A stretch of DNA of 64,000 nt, taken from positions 310,001-374,000 of the forward strand of contig JAKTTT010000003.1 in NCBI GenBank assembly GCA_030581615.1. Direction: 5' to 3'. The position numbers and the translations under genes were made by a program. This DNA is from Alloascoidea africana (Eukaryota > Ascomycota > Alloascoideomycetes > Alloascoideales > Alloascoideaceae). The notes beneath the pieces were generated by a model. The model made no database searches, was not told the DNA's origin, and saw only the letters and a list, made by a program, of their open reading frames with translations. The first letter of the stretch is position 1; each line of letters begins with the position of its first letter. Positions 16,564-28,298 of this stretch are shown one piece after another.

Positions 16564-19500
16564 ATGAAGTGGACAGGTAGGTCCAAAAGTCGACGTGGTT
16601 CTAAGCCAGACAACTCAGCAGCCTCGTCCGGCTCGACCCTCAACTCCTCTCTTTATGATACCAACAGTGTCTCTCCGGTGCCCAACTCGAATGCCGCGAC
16701 CGCGAAAGGTCTGGGACAGCATGAACCCCAGCCTAAGAACACCCCCAAGTCTGAAACCATCCATCATACCTCAGAGCCTGGCCCTGTCAACAATTCTTCA
16801 CTCTCCTTGCTTCATGAACAGCACCACCAGACACATCAACAAGGAGAGCTCCAAAGCACCCAGCAACCGCTTTCGTTAAGCAGAGACTTGCCTACAACCC
16901 AGGCTCTGCAAACCTCGGCTATCCAGATCCAGGTCCAGGTCCAGCCTCCAACGCCAGCAGCAGCGTCTTTCAATATGGCACCAGCACAATATAGCTCGAG
17001 TATCACGAGGTAAGAGCATGCCCCCGATGTCTTTTTTTCCAAACCGGTGATGTTGCATAATCTTAACCTCTTGTACAACAATAGCATCTCCGAAAATGAA
17101 ACATCCAATTTTTACGAATCGGAGAGACAGGGTATGTATAATGAACACATCACATTACTATCTGCTTGCACTAACTAAAGTCTTGATTAGACTCGATCGC
17201 CAAGCAAGCTCATATAGGGAAGTCCAACCATACCATTAGAGAAGAAACCTCTAACCCAAAGTTAATACCCTCCAGTTCTAATACAAGCTCGTCGGCCTCT
17301 TTTTCTGCTCCGGAGAGAGTAATGAGTCCTCCTGTATCTATTACAGCCTCCCTTTCGACCACAGCTACACATTTGGACAAAAGTTTCAACGAGTTTCAAA
17401 GGACCACTGCCGCAAACTTAGATTCTCAAAACCCTTCGGCCTACACAAGTGACAACTACGACACATCGGTTTTCAAAAGTGGATGGATCAACAGAGGCAC
17501 AGCACAGTTTTCAACGTGGGGAGAGAGTTCAGGACTTGAAGATAACGAGTTCAAACTGTTTGGTGCGGTTTTGAAAGGCCCTTACCTACACGTTTACAAG
17601 CCTAATGACGATATGGGTATCAAGTGTTTTGTACCCGGGATGGCGCCAACTAAAATACACCTGCAGCAGGCTAAAGAGCTCACACCCCCTGCTCAATTAA
17701 ACCAGGCAGATCAATCAGATTCCGTATCTATTGCAACAAGTTTAAATACAATGAAAGAGATACCAACTCAAATTAACTCGATAAGGAGAGCAAGACATCA
17801 ATCTCTGTCTTACAACCAAACAATAGAATCCAACATTAATGAAAGCGTCTCGGGTAATAATCAAAGCCAAATGCAGTATATTGAGAAAGAAGTTCGACTG
17901 ACTTACCTCTCAGATCGCTTCCCACATCCAGATCTGATTATTGAAAATGGTGAAATTGTTGGTGGTTCAATTGAATCGATTTGTCATGCAATTCTATTTT
18001 TCACCGACAATGATAATGTGAATGGAATAGAAAATACCCTCAGTGACAAAGAGAGCCAGGTTGTCCATGACTTGGTCGTTTACCTTCCTCTTCTAAGCGA
18101 TCTTGTCACCACTATTCGATACTTTACTGAGTATGCAACAGTTTTCACCTCTAGAGTGGGAGTTAATGGGAGTACCAGCAGCAGCGTAGGGCTTAGAGCT
18201 AGCGCTTCTACTCATTTTAAAGATGCTCCTCAAAGCCCTGTTAATAATCCTACAACTAACAAATCGAGCGACAAAACACGAACTCATGGGCATAGCAAGT
18301 CTATTCATATTGGATTACATACCGGTGCAAAAAACAGCGTGGGAGAAAACACAAAACGAAAGCATGAGGAACCAAGAACAAGAATTGTCGATCTGTCAAG
18401 TGCGGCTGAGAAACAAATGTGTTTGCGTTTACAGAAAGTTGTGGAAATAATACAAAACCAGCTTTCGGGATACCTACTAGAAGCATCTGTATTTTCAAGC
18501 TTAATTCATCTTCTTGATGTTCTCAGCAATCATGATGAGGTCATTGCAACAAAACTAAAATTCACTGCAGTCAAGAAACAAAAGAGGCTTGTTGAGTTGA
18601 TCTCATACAACAAAAAGTATCCTCCAAATGCGGCAGATGTTTATCCGGCCGCAATAAAGCCAGCTGTTATGGAGCGGATTAAGATGTACGCGAATCAAGT
18701 CCAAGCTCAAAGAGAGCAAAATATTGAGTATTTGCGGCATCAACATCAAAAGAGCTCTGTTCAGCGATCGCATTCGCCATCTTCGCCTTCCCGATCGCCT
18801 CAAGCTTCTTCGCCTTCCCGGTCGCCACAAGCTTCTTCGCCTAGACAGGCATCCACTCATGTAATTCCTGTTCTGCCAAGCGAGTTGTTTTTACAGCTAG
18901 ATGCGAAGACTACGGCAAACCAGATCTCGTATATGTTACTTGCATTTTCAAAGCAATGGTCCCCCATGTCCGACTTGTCTCTTCTCCAGGAATCGCCGTA
19001 CAATTACACATCTCTAAATCCCCTGACTTTTGATTCAGAAAACATGCACTTTTTGGGCCGGATGCTTATTCATCACATGTTTATCGATAAGCATTCTAAG
19101 GGAAAGGCTGAATTACGAGGGAAACTTCTTGAAAAATGGATAGAGGTTGGAGCCGCATTTGAAGAGACAGGAAACATGGTTGGATGGCTTGCAGTTGCGA
19201 CTGTTATCTGCGCAACTCCAATACTTAGACTCGCAGAAACCTGGACTCTTGTATCGCCATCTCTGTTTGAGGTGGTTTCTAAAGAATGGTCTCCTGTCAT
19301 TTTCGATCTTCAGAGACGTCAGCTAATGTCGAACTCGCATCAAAATAACACATATCACGTTCTGGCACCACAGGGAATTGGTGTCTCGTACCCCAAAGAG
19401 CGTGTGATTCCATACTTTGGCGATCTATTCCTTCGACATGAAGAGAAGCTCAACGTAAAGGATTGTGAAAAGCGAGTTGGCCGTGTCCGTATGGCTTTCA

Positions 19501-22500
19501 ACCGCTGGCTAGAATATCTGAGTCAAGTATCTGAGAGTGCAGCAGGCAGTTTCGCTCCTCAAGCGAAACCAATACCAGCGTTTCAAAAGCTGTTCTATCT
19601 CACCCTGACACAACCTTACGAGCTCTCTGCCTATAGTGCTGAATCTCTAATCAAATTGTCATTGGAAGTAGAGCCTTCAAATGGAGGATTATACTTGCCG
19701 CATCACTATGGTGCAAAATCACCTGTAACTTCAGGCTCCTTTGTTCCAATTTTGTTCGACGACGTTGTCCCTTCATTCAAGGTATTTCCTAGGCAATCTC
19801 TAATTGGAGTGGCTAATGCTATTGAAGGTAATTATTCCTCTTCGAACCATCCACATCGTGGACACAGCGCTGGACAAACTTGGTTTTCTTCTCCTACCAG
19901 CAGTGGGTCTTCTTCAATTAGACGAAAAAGATTAGGAACCGTACATCTCAACCATAGCAATAGTGGTGATGGCAATGGACTGCCCTTGATTTCTGATGCC
20001 GCATCTACAGTTTCAGATGAAATATCAGTGGTCTCAAGCAACAATTCTTACAATAACTCAAATGCCAATGTTAGTAGCAATCAGTCAAATTCCAAAATAG
20101 GAGGATTACAATCTTCTAATTCCCAAAATGATGTTGGTTGTCAAATTAGCGGTGTTACAGAGCTCGATACCGCTGCTACACATGCTTTCCAAAAAGCATC
20201 ATCAGTACTTAATGCAGCGGATCCAACTCCCAAAAAGAATGCAACGTTAAGAAACGGTATTTCCGATCTTTTGAATATCAACTCTATGCTTCATTTCGTT
20301 GGTGACGACTTGATCTTCAAATCGTTTGACGAGCATCGCCATGAGAGTAGCGAAGGTTTCTCAGGCGCTGGTAGAGGAGTATCTCGAATGAATAGCATTG
20401 ACAATGCAAGCATATCCGACTCGTCTACAAGGACAAGCAATCCTTTCAAAGCAGTCGTAAAAGCTGCTACTTTTGATAAATTGGTTGATATTCTTGTGCT
20501 TGGAGCTAGTGCATTTGGACCCGAAATAGCGTACTCAAGACGATCAGAAGACGCAGGCGATGGTTCATCAGTTGATAAAGGACCAACAGCCGATAGTGTA
20601 TTCGGCTCAGCTAAGCAGAGTTCAACCTACTCGGATTCAGACTCAGAAGATAACTGGTATGTACAGCTAAACATGGAGATGAGCTGTTACACAGATACTT
20701 TTTTTGCTACTTTCAGAAGCTTTTGTTCTCCTGTTATGCTGTTAGATGCACTGGGTAGAAGATTCATTGGTGCAAAGTCTGTTTCAATTTCCATTGCAAG
20801 AAGGAATACAAAACTGCTGGAGAGGCATAAACAAAAGCTTGGCGAGAAAAGCCAAGGTGTAAAAGATGAAGACAATGCGCCTAACACTCCAAGCTATAAA
20901 GTTCAAGATACAGATGCTCCGTTTCTAATTTGGGACACGAAAGTAGAAGACTCGAATGAAGAGATAAACTGGCGGTATGTTGCTCAGGTACAAATTGGAG
21001 TACTTGAAGCCCTAATTCTCTGGATATCCGATTATTTTATGGATTTTTCTGATGATCTTGAGGTTAAAAACTTGTTTCTCGAGTTTCTCAAGGTTATTGA
21101 ACTGGACACTTTGGAATGGCCGAAACGCAACGAACTATTGATAAATACAATCGGAAAAGAAATGGCAAAAGAGATTGAAGGTTACTATGAGTCTCTAAAT
21201 GTGCTATTTAAAAAGCTGCGAAAGCTGTTTATTAAGAGATGCTATAGGCCAGTCGTCCTTCAGAATCATGGATATATCTCAAACGAGTCAACCGGAGTTG
21301 GGCCTTCTCTTGCCGAGCTAACAGAAAGTATGCTTCCAATTCCTACTACCAACAATTTGTATGAAATTGAAGTCTATATTGAGAAGCTTGATTCCATTAT
21401 TTCAAAATCATTCGGGGCTGTGTCAATATTGGATTGGATGTCTTTATTCGAGCTTTTGGAGGTCCAAAGTGTTAATCCATTACAGTTTTTTAACTACGAA
21501 TCGTCTCACTCTTTGGGATCGATCGGCGAAGACAATCTGGTAATTGAAAATATATTCAGTTGGTTGGAAACATTAAGAGCAGAAAATCAAGTCAGTGGAG
21601 ACGAAAACGATAGCAAGGGAAGTAATGCTCAGGGTCTCCTTTTCCCCAAACTGCCAGCTTCAATTAGGGCTCTAGTAAACATGCACAACTTAATGGTTAC
21701 ATGCTTAACAAATGAAATTACCAGTGGAAAGATCAGCAAGGATGAACGGATACGAAGAATGACCTCGCTACTAAATTGCCTAGGCGTGATAAGATGCAGA
21801 ATGGCTTCTCTCGATATGTTTCTCCCTGATGAGCAGTTGCCAGTCAGCCCTCACATTCCAGGCTTCCTTGAAACTGTCTTTGCAAATGTACTTGTTCGAC
21901 CTGAAAGCCGGTTTTTTGCCAGTTCTTGGAAGAAAGCTGTTTCTTTAGTTGGAATGAACCACACATATACAGTCGAAGCGATGACTCCCCTTATCAGAAA
22001 AGAGCATTTGCAAAGCGAATACAGAGATGAACCGTTAACCCCTTGTATTGGTTGGATAACTGAAAGACTTCTTGAAATTGTGTGCTATGTTCCAAATATG
22101 TCTCTCGCTAACCCTAAGCTCATAAATTTTGACAAAAGAAGATTCATCTATAGCTGTATAAATGGAGTGTTGGAAATGCACAGTTTCCTCGCAAATTTAC
22201 GACAGGATGGACAGCAGGCAAATGAGGCGTCAAGACAAGGAGATGGCACTTCTCTGGCATCATTATCGCCAATCCTCGGTGTAAAAGCTTCTAAAATAGG
22301 AGGGTCTAACCCGAAGAACAAGCTTGCGAAAATCGCAATGAGTGGCAAAAACTTGTTGGCCAGTGCCTCTTCCTTATCTACGACTTCTTCCTGTATGGAC
22401 TGGAGACAAGCTCGAGAAACCGCACTCAAGGAAAGTAAAGCCTATCCCAAAACCGATCAAAAGCTTCGGGTCTTCTATGGGAATGTTGAAGGAGAAACAG

Positions 22501-23855
22501 AGAAAGTCAGGCGTGACAAGCGGCATCGTGATATTCTGGAACTTCAAATTGGCGATTTAAAGAAGACAGTAATAGCTCCACAGCATCAGCAGAGAAAGCA
22601 ACAGCGACAGCAACAAAAAGTCCAGGAGACTGGATCTGCATCTTTAACTAATATTGCCAGCAGTAATGCGTCCAATTATGGGTCTACCATGGTTTCAGGT
22701 TCCGGTGCGGAATCCGTTAGTGGAAGCTACTTGATGGAGAAAAAGAATAGCAGGTTTAAAATTGGAAACATCCTGAACAAAGTCCGCTCTTTCAACAGTA
22801 GCAATAATAGTTCCTCAAGCAATGGACTATCTGAACGAAGAAATGGGAGTACAAATATATTTTCCAGCTTTAACGGTAGTAATGGTCTGAAGCTTAATCA
22901 AAGTTCTTATGCTCCTTCAGCCAGTGAAAATGGACAATCTCAAAGACGGAAACAGACTGGTGAGCGAGAAGTGTCTATAGAAGATCTCCCCTCAGTTCAG
23001 ACACTACTAGAAGCGAACTCAGGGCCATCGCTAGTGATACGCGCGTGGGAAGCAAACGCGTTGTTGATCAATTCTAATGCAATCGACGGCCTGTTCAAAG
23101 TTGTTGTCACGAGAAGTGCCTCTGGTCCAGATCAAGTCCCACCGCCGCCTACGGAGTACACATTCCAGGCTTCTAGTAACGACGAGGCAGGTGAATGGGT
23201 CAGAGCAATAAACACCTCCAAGAAGTACGCATATCTCTCCAAATTGATAAAGGGCAATGCTACACGAGTGTTTGGTGTTCCTCTCGATGTCGTTTGTGAA
23301 CGGGAGGGATCTCTTGTTCCTGAAGTAGTTGAGAAACTTCTGCTGACGGTTGAAACTAAGGGGCTTCGTGAGGTTGGAATTTATAGGGTTCCTGGTTCAT
23401 TGGCCAGTGTTAATGCATTAAAAGATGCTTTTGATAACGGGGCTGAAAATGTGAACATGGCTGATCCAGAATGGAAAGATGTGAACACAGCAGCTGGTTG
23501 TTTCAAACTTTACCTTCGTGAATTGCCTACTGATATCCTAACGCCACATCTGTTCAAAGAGTTTACAGGAGTAACCAAACTCACAGATGAAGCAGAGCAG
23601 GTCAAGCTTGTCCGTTCTATTCTTGAAAGAATGCCCAATTTGAACCTCCACCTTCTGAGGAGACTGATACAGCACCTGGCAAAGATCGCAGAGAACGGGG
23701 ATCAAAATCGAATGCATCCTGTAAATTTGGCCATTGTGTTTTCAATGAGCTTAATTGTCACTGGTGCTGGGTCAGGAAACGTTTCTACTGAACTTGGCGC
23801 GGTTCAGTCCTTGTTGAAGCTGATGATTTCGAGATGTCATGATATATTCGATTAA
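16564..23855 (+). CDS. BEM2: Bem2-like RhoGAP with RasGEF-like and PH domains
   Basis: Three exons, 16564-17009, 17085-17131 and 17191-23855, encode ~2385 residues. Introns are 75 and 59 nt with donors GTAAGA and GTATGT and branch sites CTTAAC and ACTAAC; phases 2 and 1 join cleanly. Bem2 turns off Rho-type GTPases (Rho1, Cdc42) in bud emergence, cytoskeleton polarity and morphogenesis checkpoints. The N-terminus, MKWTGRSKSRRGS, resembles the family start, and the first ~300 residues are Ser/Thr/Gln rich. A RasGEF-like fold lies around 690-830, with a RasGEF N-motif-like region near 1260-1420. A PH-like domain lies at ~2100-2175. The C-terminal RhoGAP domain (~2190-2385) has the arginine finger in GIYRVPGS and the helix block FKLYLRELPTDILTPHL. 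S. cerevisiae Bem2 is 2167 residues. The Ser/Arg/Pro-Gln repeats near 18770-18845 (SPSRSPQAS units) are a local low-complexity expansion. Confidence 0.93.
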
Positions 23856-24700
23856 GCGCAAAACGTGTTTGGGTTTATTTGTATGTCTTAGTTTATGCTT
23901 CCTTTTTAGATATTCCTTTTTTGTCTTTTTTTTTTTTGTTCCTGTGAGTATTCTTTTGGGCTTTTCCTTATTTCGTGTAGAGTGAAAGTTGTCAATAAGC
24001 TGTTTGACCCTCGGCCAACCACAGAAAGTTTTGGTCAAGGGAGCAAGCACATTCTTCGTACATTATTTATGATGTCAATGACTTTAAAAATTAATAACGC
24101 AATTGCTTTGTTAATGTAATATGTGACCGGCATGCTCACATCCTATTTACTTTTATTCACTTAAATCTACACTATTTCCTATTATTATGCTCTTAAACTT
24201 TATAGAGCATCATGAATAATCTATCGTTAACACAAGTAGAATTACTTAAATAGTGTATTCATTCCTTAGAAAGAACAAGAAATCATATCAATATTTTCCT
24301 ACAATTAAATCTTTCACTGACTTGATGTTCGCGTTAACCACTTCACAAAACTAGCAACACACTACAGTTAATGGCTATTATTATGCCTGACCTTTCATTT
24401 GCCTCTCAAGTAGTTTCTTGAGACTGTTCTTGAACTATTTGATGGCGATATTGAATGTATTTAATTTCTATAATAGGGTAACTGTTTAAGGTTTGCGTTA
24501 GAACTTTTGCGATCGTTTCTCTGAGCATTTCAGAGGTCATTTGCCAAATCAATGAGTTCTTTTCCGAAGGCCTGGTTGCATTAGGTATACTTTTTTGGTT
24601 GGTGTGTTTTGCACTTTTTCATGCATTTAGCGCTTGGTTTCTATCGGTGAACCTCTCGGGGATTGTAAACGATTGAATCCCATAAAGATTCAGAGTAGTT
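23856..24700. other. AT-rich intergenic DNA after BEM2
   Basis: BEM2 3' UTR with T-runs near 23925, then AT-rich sequence without a coding pattern. Toward the right it merges with the broken transposase-like frame. No tRNA or snRNA signature seen. Confidence 0.4.
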
Positions 24701-24961
24701 CTATATCTCCAATAGCTCGGTTAACCTGATTATTAAGTGTCGATCAAACTGAAAATTCATCTTGATTGTTGCTTCATCCATATTACATATATCGAAAACA
24801 AAATCTGGCACGTCTGGGTAGTCTTCATCATCATCCATTAGCAATAGTTGCAGCAAGTTCAATTGTGACGATGCACCGGCAGCCATTGCAGCCGCCATCG
24901 CTATGATGTCCTCATCCTAATCTTCTTCAATTAGAGAAGCAAAATCAGCTTGATCTGTCAT
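24701..24961 (-). pseudogene. N-terminal remnant of a DNA-transposon (PIF/Harbinger-like) protein
   Basis: Read on the minus strand from the ATG at 24961, the frame gives MTDQADFASLIEED, an in-frame TAG, then DEDII, an Ala/Met-rich run, an acidic segment (MDDDEDYPDVPDF), and ends MDEATIKMNFQFDRHLIIRLTELLEI followed by a stop. The last block looks like the helical region that begins many PIF/Harbinger-type transposase proteins (FxFxRxLIxRLxELLxI). Further downstream the sense decays. One internal stop, an abrupt end and the absence of the DDE core show a dead fragment. I found no terminal inverted repeats. The family assignment is recognition by eye only. Confidence 0.4.
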
Positions 24962-25799
24962 GACTTTTTAATTCAAGTGTAGTGAACAATATCATTCAAA
25001 TTGCAAATGTCCTCTTGAATCCAACAGATGGTTGGAGGGTTTATACGTAAATGTTGACGCAAATCTTGGAAAAGAAGGGAAAAATGATTGTATTAAACTC
25101 TTGCATCAAGTTTTTCAGGTATGCAAGTAAAAAAATTGGGCTGAATTTTTGACGCTAAACTTCTAACGCAATGCCTTATACAATTTCCTAGTTGTGACTT
25201 TTGTTGTATTGTATGTTCGTAAAAACATTCGAAGTCCCCACATGCTCGCAAGCACATAACATCATGTAGCACTCTAAACTCATTGTCATTTGGGATAGTC
25301 AATTTTATCAAATGCAAGCTTATGTTCTTTATAGTAGAAGCCGCAATGAATTTTGTGAGTGAGCTTTTGACAGCGCATCATCTCAAATGTTTCATTTAAG
25401 CTGTGCGAGTCAACTTTGTTCATAGTCAGTGATGACTTCACTGAGATTTGTACCCGAAGAGATAAACCAGTAAATTTACTAACTAAAACAAGTCGCTGTT
25501 CGGTAAAAGCTGTTTTTGTAATTTCATAAGGAGAAAAAACTAAAGGAATGCTCTTTCTAGAACTCCACTTTAGCTTTTAGAGAAAAGTTGAGCACATATA
25601 GACCAAAGGGTTAATTGTAGACAATACTAAAAATGCTGAATACCCAATGAGCATAGCTCATCAAATGCTGTGGAATGAACTGAGCTTTAATAGAAAGAAC
25701 GCGCAAGATAGAATGGTAAAACTTCTTGCATTCGAAACTTCTCTCTCACAGGTCAAAGTTTAGATGACTTATCTGCTCTATTGCTAAGGTTGTAGGAAT
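24962..25799. other. Gene-poor DNA left of the U2 pair
   Basis: AT-rich sequence. On the minus strand 25093-25317 stays open for 74 codons without an ATG at its start (reads HDVMCLRACGDFECFYEH). This may be a decayed exon or transposon piece, but I cannot assign it. Nothing else stands out. Confidence 0.35.
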
Positions 25800-25879
25800 A
25801 ACGATTTTAAACCAATAGCCCAACCTTGGGTTACAAGCCAAAAACCATCCCATCAAAGATGGAAAAGGGAAATAAAAGC

Positions 25880-26059
25880 GTCAGTTGCCTAGAGTGCAAT
25901 AGCAACGACACAACGCCACGAGCCATAGGCAAGCCCAGAGGACTCAACGGCCTGCTTCAAAAATAAGAGTAACAAGAATTGACATCGATGATGTCATATC
26001 AGTTGTTACACTGAAAAGAACAGATACTACACTTGATCTAAGCCAATTGGCAAAGAGAT
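25880..26059 (-). ncRNA. U2: U2 spliceosomal snRNA, copy 1
   Basis: Reverse-strand copy, identical to the + copy at 26633-26812. It begins ATCTCTTTGCC and contains GGCTTAGATCAAGTGTAGTA, the near-invariant U2 segment whose GUAGUA pairs with the intron branch site. U2 recognises the branch point and forms helices with U6 in the active spliceosome. The Sm-site AUUUUUG and the 3' stem-loops are present. At about 180 nt it has the size of the S. pombe or animal RNA rather than the 1.2-kb S. cerevisiae form. Exact ends are estimated. A TATATAA box lies ~50 bp upstream, at 26109-26115. Confidence 0.93.
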
Positions 26060-26108
26060 TTGAGGAAAGGAAAAGAAAAAAAATCAAAAGATTTTGGGGG
26101 AGTGGCAC

Positions 26109-26115
26109 TTATATA
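26109..26115 (-). promoter_or_regulatory. TATA box of U2 copy 1
   Basis: TATATAA (reverse strand), ~50 bp upstream of the predicted 5' end and inside the repeat arm, as expected for an RNA polymerase II snRNA promoter in yeasts. Confidence 0.55.
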
Positions 26116-26135
26116 GATTTTTCGAGGGCGGGTAA

Positions 26136-26556
26136 TACTATTAACCTCAGAGTAGGGCTGTTGACAAAATACCCTCTGATCCCAAAATGCAGTTCTTACT
26201 GTTTGTTGTCTTTGTACAACGAGCCACAACCTTGTGTTAAACGAACTGTTTGATCAAAGCTGATGAGATATTGTTTTTCAGTCATTTTCTAGTCGTTTGG
26301 TTCCAAAATAGTCATAGTTGGAGATCGTTGTCTCGGGATGAGCATTCCGGATGTTCAATTCGTTTAACTAAACCGCAAGTCTAAACTTCTTTTCAAATCT
26401 CACTATAATCGTCGATTTGGTTAAAACCAAATTTATTCTGGTTTTAGTTCTTCATTCTATGTGGTTGGTTCTGAACTCTTCGATACCAGATCTATGCTTA
26501 AACCGACAGGAACTTTATGCCAAGATGCTCAGGAGAAACGTGACTGAATACAGATG
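26136..26556. promoter_or_regulatory. Spacer and shared upstream region of the two U2 genes
   Basis: 421 bp of unique DNA between the inverted-repeat arms. Both U2 genes point away from it, so it must hold any upstream activating sites they share beyond the duplicated TATA region. An inner palindrome-like GGTTAAAACC lies near 26419. No coding pattern. Confidence 0.4.
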
Positions 26557-26576
26557 TTACCCGCCCTCGAAAAATC

Positions 26577-26583
26577 TATATAA
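26577..26583 (+). promoter_or_regulatory. TATA box of U2 copy 2
   Basis: TATATAA located 50 bp upstream of the predicted U2 5' end; mirror image of the site for copy 1. Confidence 0.55.
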
Positions 26584-26632
26584 GTGCCACTCCCCCAAAA
26601 TCTTTTGATTTTTTTTCTTTTCCTTTCCTCAA

Positions 26633-26812
26633 ATCTCTTTGCCAATTGGCTTAGATCAAGTGTAGTATCTGTTCTTTTCAGTGTAACAACTGATATGACA
26701 TCATCGATGTCAATTCTTGTTACTCTTATTTTTGAAGCAGGCCGTTGAGTCCTCTGGGCTTGCCTATGGCTCGTGGCGTTGTGTCGTTGCTATTGCACTC
26801 TAGGCAACTGAC
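26633..26812 (+). ncRNA. U2: U2 spliceosomal snRNA, copy 2
   Basis: Starts ATCTCTTTGCC. The branch-site recognition sequence GUAGUA is at 26662-26667, inside the conserved block GATCAAGTGTAGTATCTGTTCTT. Stem-loop IIa follows (TTCAGTGTAACAACTGA), then a IIb-like hairpin (ACATCATCGATGT). The Sm-type site ATTTTTG is at 26728-26734. A stem III (AGGC...GCCT) comes next, and the terminal stem-loop IV (GTTGC/GCAAC with loop TATTGCACTC) resembles the U2B''-binding loop. The UACUAAC-like branch sites of the introns in this window fit this RNA. The 3' end at ~26812 is estimated from the last pairing. Confidence 0.95.
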
Positions 26813-27036
26813 GCTTTTATTTCCCTTTTCCATCTTTGATGGGATGGTTTTTGGCTTGTAACCCAAGGTTGGGCTATTGGTTTAAAATCGTTTTCTGAAA
26901 AAACTAACGTCTAAGAATGTATTCGACTAGCTGATGTACATAATGACAGCTTTTACTATTTACATAGTGATGAGATCTTGTTGTTCAGTGTGGCATAGAC
27001 AGTATATTCCATGCTCTTGATGGATCATTTGTCAGA

Positions 27037-28298
27037 CTATTTTTTGGGATTGTCACTCTTGGCTTCGTTCTTCTTTTCGGCTTCCAACTCTTCGAGAGCC
27101 TGCCTCCTGGCTTTCTCTGCTTTTTCTGCTTCTTCAACAAGTTTAGAGAAATATGATCCGAGACCTTGTTGTTGAGCTGCCAAGGTCGCTGGGTCTGGTT
27201 TTTGAATTTCTGCCATCCCAAACATCTTCCTCACGTATTTATTTCTCAGCAAGGCAGACTGGATAATGGTACAGACGGCATTCGCCGCAAAGTAAACAAT
27301 GACAGAGGCAGAAATATTCATAGTCAGTGGAATAGACAGTATGGGCAGAAATGTCATTAGCTTCTTCATTTCAGGAGTCATTGTTTGAGCGCCAGTGTCT
27401 CCTCCTAACTTCATGGAGCCTATGAAAGCTGCTGCTGTAAAACATTGAAGCCCCACATAAGGATCGGCAGCAGATAAATCTGTAAACCAAAGAGCACCCT
27501 GGTTTTGAAATCCGTCAACTGGTATGAGAGCCATCTCGCGAAGAGATGTGAAAAAACTGATGGCGAGTGGAAGTTGAACAAAAGGTGCAAACATATATCT
27601 CATTTTGATTCCATTATCTTTCATCAATTGTGTCCTTTGCAAGTTCACTTTTTGAATCTCAACTCTTTGACCTTGAGCTCTTATCATTTGTTGACTCAAC
27701 TTATCCATATCTGGCTTTATCTTTGAAAGTCTTGCAGCCGTATCAGAGGATTTCAAATAGAAAGGGAAAAGTGCTACACGCATTCCTATCGTTGTAATAA
27801 CTATTGCTGCCCACCAAGGAACTCCTGCCTGAATGTGAACCATTTCCAAAACATGTTCTATCAGACCTGGTGGCCACCACCAACTCTGGGCAAGGCCGAT
27901 ACTTTGTAAATATCCAATGTGATTAGAAGCTTCCCCGATTATTGGAGCTGCGGCCTCGGCAACGTCTCCTACACTCGATATTGCATTGGTGATAAAATCT
28001 GAAGAAGAGGAAATATCAAACTGTTCCAGGCTGGAGCTTGGCTCTGCAATAATTCCAGAAGCTCCCGATGTAGATGTTGAATTGAACCGAATGGATCCTA
28101 TTATAGAAGGATATGTTTTCCTGATCGAAGAGTTGACCTGAAAATTTATGCCAATTGATTCTCGATATTGAGAATGACGAAGGTTCCTGAAAGGTCGAGC
28201 AGCCTTTGTTGAGCCAGTTAATTACTTGCTCTCGCTTTTTTAATGAATCTGAAGCCACTTACCACTTTCCCGCCATGAGAAACGATTCCTCTTAGCAT
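27037..28298 (-). CDS. OXA1: Oxa1, mitochondrial inner-membrane insertase
   Basis: Two exons, 28298-28263 (12 codons) and 28137-27037, with a 125-nt intron (donor GTAAGT, acceptor TTTTCAG), give 378 residues. Oxa1 inserts mitochondrially made proteins such as Cox2, and some imported proteins, into the inner membrane, and it binds mitoribosomes through its tail. The N-terminus is a basic presequence (MLRGIVSHGGKV|VNSSIRKTYPS). The YidC/Oxa1 core spans ~100-330 and includes WWWPPGLIEHVLEMVH, GVPWWAAIVITTIGMR, the matrix loop ARLSKIKPDMDKLSQQM, FVQLPLAISFFTSLREM and GSMKLGGDTGA. Five membrane helices are visible. The last ~55 residues are a charged coiled coil (VEEAEKAEKARRQALEELE), the ribosome-binding tail. 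The branch site of the intron is not obvious; the only other acceptor tried breaks the frame. Yeast Oxa1 is 402 residues. Confidence 0.93.

Follow-up and report, generated by a model that had tools for sequence, protein, structure and literature searches.

Two U2 snRNA genes lie head to head in an exact inverted repeat in the window, the whole 64-kb stretch of DNA that was analysed here. We put a probability of about 0.5 on the reading that a complete Pol II snRNA unit has truly been duplicated here in inverted orientation, that the pair is not brand new, and that it has been kept identical by gene conversion and selection. The two arms (Table 1) were exact reverse complements of 336 nt (100% complementary, 0 mismatches) separated by a spacer of 421 bp, and they were the sole exact inverted repeat of at least 20 nt in the window. 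As background, a 200-kb part of this contig (C3:1-200000) contained 45 exact inverted-repeat pairs of at least 20 nt, and since the longest of them was 73 nt, the U2 arms cannot be put down to background or chance. A DNA search of the assembly with positions 25500-27200 returned nothing beyond this locus and its pair of arms, and copies of the spacer or of the near flanks elsewhere in the assembly were accordingly rejected. No inverted similarity was found between the two ends of the spacer (first and last 120 bp, a score reached by 495 of 500 shuffles) or between the 120-bp outer flanks (290 of 500); no decayed inverted homology was recognised past the arms, and near-identical arms stand between unlike flanks. 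The preliminary description of this DNA had claimed exact 336-bp inverted arms, a unique 421-bp spacer and an abrupt loss of identity at both ends, and the coordinates, the assembly search and the shuffles agree with it on all three.

Table 1. Features of the U2 locus, with positions in the window
Feature	Position	Strand	Basis or remark
Left arm with one U2 transcription unit (predicted direction leftward)	25800..26135	-	exact reverse complement of 26557-26892
Predicted 3′ hairpin sequence, left copy	25800..25849	-	sequence identical to that of the right copy
U2 snRNA gene, left copy	25870..26059	-	RF00004, 137.5 bits, model 1-192 of 192
TATA box of left U2, -56	26110..26115	-	TATA at -54 to -56 also in U1, U4, U5
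TTACCCG box of left U2, -76	26129..26135	-	outer base is the inner end of the arm
Unique spacer between divergent promoters	26136..26556	.	no second copy in the assembly; ends not alike in the inverted sense
AGCCCTA box (Tbf1-like), -100 of left U2, inside spacer	26153..26159	-	motif match
Right arm with the other U2 transcription unit (predicted direction rightward)	26557..26892	+	exact reverse complement of 25800-26135
TTACCCG box of right U2, -76	26557..26563	+	outer base is the inner end of the arm
TATA box of right U2, -56	26577..26582	+	TATATA motif
U2 snRNA gene, right copy	26633..26822	+	RF00004, 137.5 bits, model 1-192 of 192
Predicted 3′ hairpin, AGGU loop, right copy	26843..26892	+	ends at the outer end of the arm; 70-nt fold z -2.21

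Both copies gave a full-length match to the U2 covariance model RF00004, above its gathering score of 46, and the strands of these matches predict outward transcription of both genes. That the locus holds two complete U2 genes with a promoter apiece had been proposed before, and the full-length matches together with the TTACCCG and TATA boxes uphold this; the distances given at that time were close, the TATA box at 50 bp corresponding to a TATATA motif that starts at -56 and the 3′ flank of ~80 bp to the 70 bp by which each arm extends past the 3′ end of its U2 match. To judge from their sequence, the two complete copies are probably both transcribed. The genome-wide search for further U2 copies suggested in the preliminary description, carried out with the U2 model on the 23.18-Mb, 138-contig assembly, returned only the two arm copies and no third one among the 46 of 887 first-look candidates that were scored. 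For U1, U4, U5 and U6, one match each was obtained in the assembly (41 to 48 candidates scored per model; the U1 match, at 64.9 bits, was under its cut-off of 69.5), and duplication of other snRNAs was thus rejected. As to the preliminary description's remark that most budding yeasts would have a single-copy U2, five snRNAs are given for the Candida Genome Database in an excerpt of PMC2926782, a number that fits one of each kind. An Rfam search of the spacer, with E values up to 5, detected no other known RNA; apart from U2 itself it gave just weak antisense snoRNA matches inside the U2 genes (E 1.6-1.7). Separately, a contig filed under a bacterial MAG was seen to carry a U2 and a U1 gene in divergent orientation, with 199 bp between them (L010:118-672); it also has a 5S rRNA gene and histone 3′ stem-loops, pointing to eukaryotic contamination that contains a head-to-head snRNA pair.

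Comparison of the 300 bp upstream of all snRNA genes found revealed a putative promoter plan common to the U1, U2, U4 and U5 genes, which is new: all five genes carried TATA at -54 to -56 and, farther upstream at -74 to -76, TTACCCG, which in U5 is on the opposite strand. This TTACCCG-TATA plan was absent from the 300 bp upstream of U6, and TTACCCG was absent from the 300 bp upstream of each of the two U3 snoRNA genes. At this spacing, with the TTACCCG box on either strand, the pair of boxes was met once in 261,502 bp of background; genome-wide, the sense form of TTACCCG with TATA occurred at 37 places versus 22 for the reversed control, and because of this the two boxes alone are not specific to snRNA genes. 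A third box, AGCCCTA, was located at -102 in U1, -94 in U4, -109 in U5 and -100 in the left U2, always in the sense direction; the chance expectation for an exact sense AGCCCTA in 23 start positions is 0.0008, for a motif that was picked after looking at these same promoters. Upstream of the right U2 no AGCCCTA was present, the best match having 3 mismatches in -135 to -77 and 2 in -300 to -77. The set of three boxes was found at 7 places in the genome, namely U1, U4, the left U2 and four copies of one repeat (reversed control 0), and the set with TTACCCG reversed at 1 place, U5 (control 0). AGCCCTA, TTACCCG and TATA together could help to recognise the U1, U2, U4 and U5 genes of this lineage.

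We take TTACCCG to be a Reb1-like site, and AGCCCTAA presumably resembles a Tbf1 site, going by the consensus. The Tbf1 motif is given as ACCCTA in the excerpted text of PMC2926782. The sites were named by analogy with Saccharomyces, and homologues of Reb1 and Tbf1 may bind them. In the left U2 the box reads AGCCCTAC, without the last A of the RCCCTAA form found in U1, U4 and U5. As to the four repeat copies that carry the three-box set (L036, at G000:C68:115001-116200; C1:740; C31:2617; C123:11176), the set in the one copy inspected is immediately next to a dispersed LTR-like repeat also present in the left flank in the window, and not far from a frame with weak, sub-threshold similarity to gag_pre-integrase (E 0.0088). 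Downstream of U5, about 320 bp after the start of its match (L006, 1501), there is a further TATAAA with a pyrimidine tract behind it, an arrangement much as at the beginning of another small-RNA gene.

The inner end of each arm coincided exactly with the outer base of its TTACCCG box, and the outer end coincided with the base of a predicted AGNN-loop hairpin, the latter being weaker evidence than the former. On account of these ends, which were interpreted after being seen, the stretch of identity corresponds almost exactly to a single transcription unit. The preliminary description had missed this ending of the block at promoter, and perhaps 3′-processing, elements, as well as the third promoter box at one end of the spacer. 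Regarding the outer end, the 70 nt after U2 were matched in folding by 4 of 200 shuffles, and for the left copy with 110 nt of context, a different fold without the hairpin was predicted. Hairpins with AGNN loops were found near the RNA 3′ ends of U2 (AGGU, 4 contiguous bp), U4 (AGGU, 6 bp, in the sequence GCAGTG[AGGT]CACTGC) and U5 (AGGC, 9 bp), and none was found within 120 nt of the end of U1 or within 220 nt at either U3 gene; in 5000 random 220-nt stretches, such hairpins with at least 4, 6 and 8 bp occurred at 23%, 4.4% and 0.7%, respectively. According to excerpts of two papers, the Saccharomyces RNase III Rnt1 recognises AGNN loops and cuts the precursors of U1, U2, U4, U5 and U3 (PMC13183374; PMC1868780). 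By analogy, the predicted fold suggests that the 3′ edge of the block is a probable Rnt1-type processing hairpin, to which an Rnt1 homologue may bind; the different fold in left context, the lack of such hairpins at U1 and U3 and their frequency in random stretches speak against it.

On its left side the locus is bordered by 1.9 kb in which there is no gene, and beyond that by a large RhoGAP/RasGEF gene (17322-23855); on its right side, 144 bp separate the right arm from the end of an OXA1/YidC-like frame. The left flank contains a dispersed repeat in two pieces (24115-24366 and 24705-24896), and a 1,940-bp query from this flank gave 51 matches in all, itself included, most of them to the first piece (about 24115-24366). 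On the minus strand, 24701-24916 holds an open, protein-like piece of 71 aa that is flanked by stops and for which Pfam gave nothing above the cut-off. A gapped direct match was observed between 25222-25268 in the left flank and 27439-27484 in the OXA1-like coding sequence, with a score that 0 of 500 shuffles beat; an OXA1 relic in the left flank was not supported, this match and the other short ones not being collinear and tblastn with OXA1 reaching only E 0.65.

For the age of the pair, we slightly favour arm-to-arm gene conversion of a real pair over a recent duplication. The unit copied would have consisted of the TTACCCG box, the TATA box, the U2 gene and the 3′ flank with the probable processing hairpin. 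In an older inverted pair, flanks without constraint would have decayed beyond recognition, the functional block would have been held identical by arm-to-arm gene conversion and purifying selection, and the block would as a result have been trimmed to the edges of the functional elements. The coincidence of the edges speaks for such a pair, as a recent breakpoint need not meet functional edges. With 0 differences in 336 sites, the divergence is below about 0.9% (2% over the 146 sites outside the RNA), a figure that only bounds the divergence and fits both alternatives of the preliminary description, a very recent duplication and ongoing conversion. The two U3 snoRNA genes are dispersed on different contigs (G000:C15:260474-260760 and G000:C52:64804-65090) and their alignment of 381 columns contains 20 mismatches and 15 gap positions (346 of 381 alike). 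Divergence of this dispersed pair beside identity of the linked U2 pair makes a contrast but does not amount to proof, as the U3 pair may be older. Relatives with the same locus were sought with a U2 core pattern, which gave 0 stretches in viral contigs and 4 in genome contigs, none of them from a recognisable relative. For ADE1 and ATP-citrate lyase the best protein matches reached 78% and 82%, and among the 120 matches listed out of thousands, those with a name came from Saccharomycotina such as Pachysolen, Sugiyamaella and Yarrowia, which places the genome in that group.

Somewhat short of even odds is given to a recent inverted duplication, in which replication template switching copied the unit from TTACCCG outward and inserted it, inverted, 421 bp away; the identity of the arms would then reflect youth, and the daughter would be the copy lacking AGCCCTA. 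The 0 differences in 336 sites are in keeping with it, and so is the lack of inverted homology past the block, which is also expected of a recent copy. The presence of AGCCCTA at one copy only is what a copy cut at TTACCCG should display; however, parent and daughter cannot be told apart by this box, because flipping of the spacer, if it occurs, would make the lone AGCCCTA at one spacer end change its U2 partner. A direct match of 22 bp with 2 mismatches between the spacer (26261-26282) and the right flank (26968-26989) is a possible trace of the insertion (E 5.9e-5; score reached by 1 of 500 shuffles), but it is one of eight comparisons made. The breakpoints of such a duplication would need to have met functional edges by chance or through microhomology.

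Compatible with the other readings, though unlikely, is the view that strong expression is confined to one gene, the other (here the right copy, which lacks AGCCCTA) being a weakly expressed spare used as template for conversion. AGCCCTA upstream of U1, U4, U5 and the left U2 and not of the right U2 speaks for it; against this, the right copy keeps TTACCCG, TATA, the RNA and the 3′ flank intact, and the left box itself, AGCCCTAC, departs from the RCCCTAA form of U1, U4 and U5. Flipping of the spacer, raised in the preliminary description, is possible in principle, by analogy with S. cerevisiae, in which inverted repeats at a fork barrier gave 47.5% conversions and 52.5% inversions of the intervening DNA, as reported in an excerpt of PMC8748988; the repeats in that system are long, whereas the U2 arms are 336 bp. 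That the spacer is a natural flip element, moving the lone AGCCCTA between the U2 genes, with both orientations in the population and with proteins at the Reb1-like sites stalling forks and driving conversion, is a reading that we consider very improbable. An assembly or library artefact is very unlikely: inverted joins are a known artefact class, and the perfect identity of the arms would suit one real U2 locus joined to its own inverted copy, but the outer flanks of the two arms are unlike, the spacer between them is unique, there is no N in the window, and the open OXA1/YidC-like frame stands beyond the right arm. Had there been a simple inverted join, one would expect homology to continue into a flank, or a unique spacer to be missing.

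A search of the literature, with most subscription journals outside its scope, yielded no report of a head-to-head U2 pair in yeast. The upstream regions resemble the Saccharomyces sn(o)RNA promoters, which likewise have a Tbf1-like box, a Reb1-like box and TATA upstream of small-RNA genes according to an excerpt of PMC3793857; here, in contrast, the sites are predicted by motif, and the U3 genes are without TTACCCG. The human RNU2 locus, as excerpted from PMC3795722, also has several U2 genes at one locus, arranged as a tandem repeat of variable number, whereas the present copies are two and inverted. In the human Y-chromosome palindromes the arms are likewise alike, through arm-to-arm conversion; these were studied by genotyping many chromosomes (PMC3723533), whereas conversion of the U2 pair is proposed from one locus. 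The pair offers a compact natural test case of the means by which identity between duplicates of an essential small-RNA gene is preserved in a genome, with arms of 336 bp, a unique spacer, unique outer flanks and a block that apparently ends at promoter and 3′-end elements. Close in layout are the inverted-repeat gene pairs of Caenorhabditis (PMC1803023), which similarly consist of near-identical, opposite copies around a short unique spacer, are near-identical within a species and differ between species, and for which conversion was proposed, a precedent for the reading favoured here; those are protein genes with comparative proof of long persistence, whereas ours is an snRNA gene with 336-bp arms in one genome. 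The layout is unusual for U2 and yet of a known type, inverted gene pairs kept or found identical being already on record in that work (PMC1803023).
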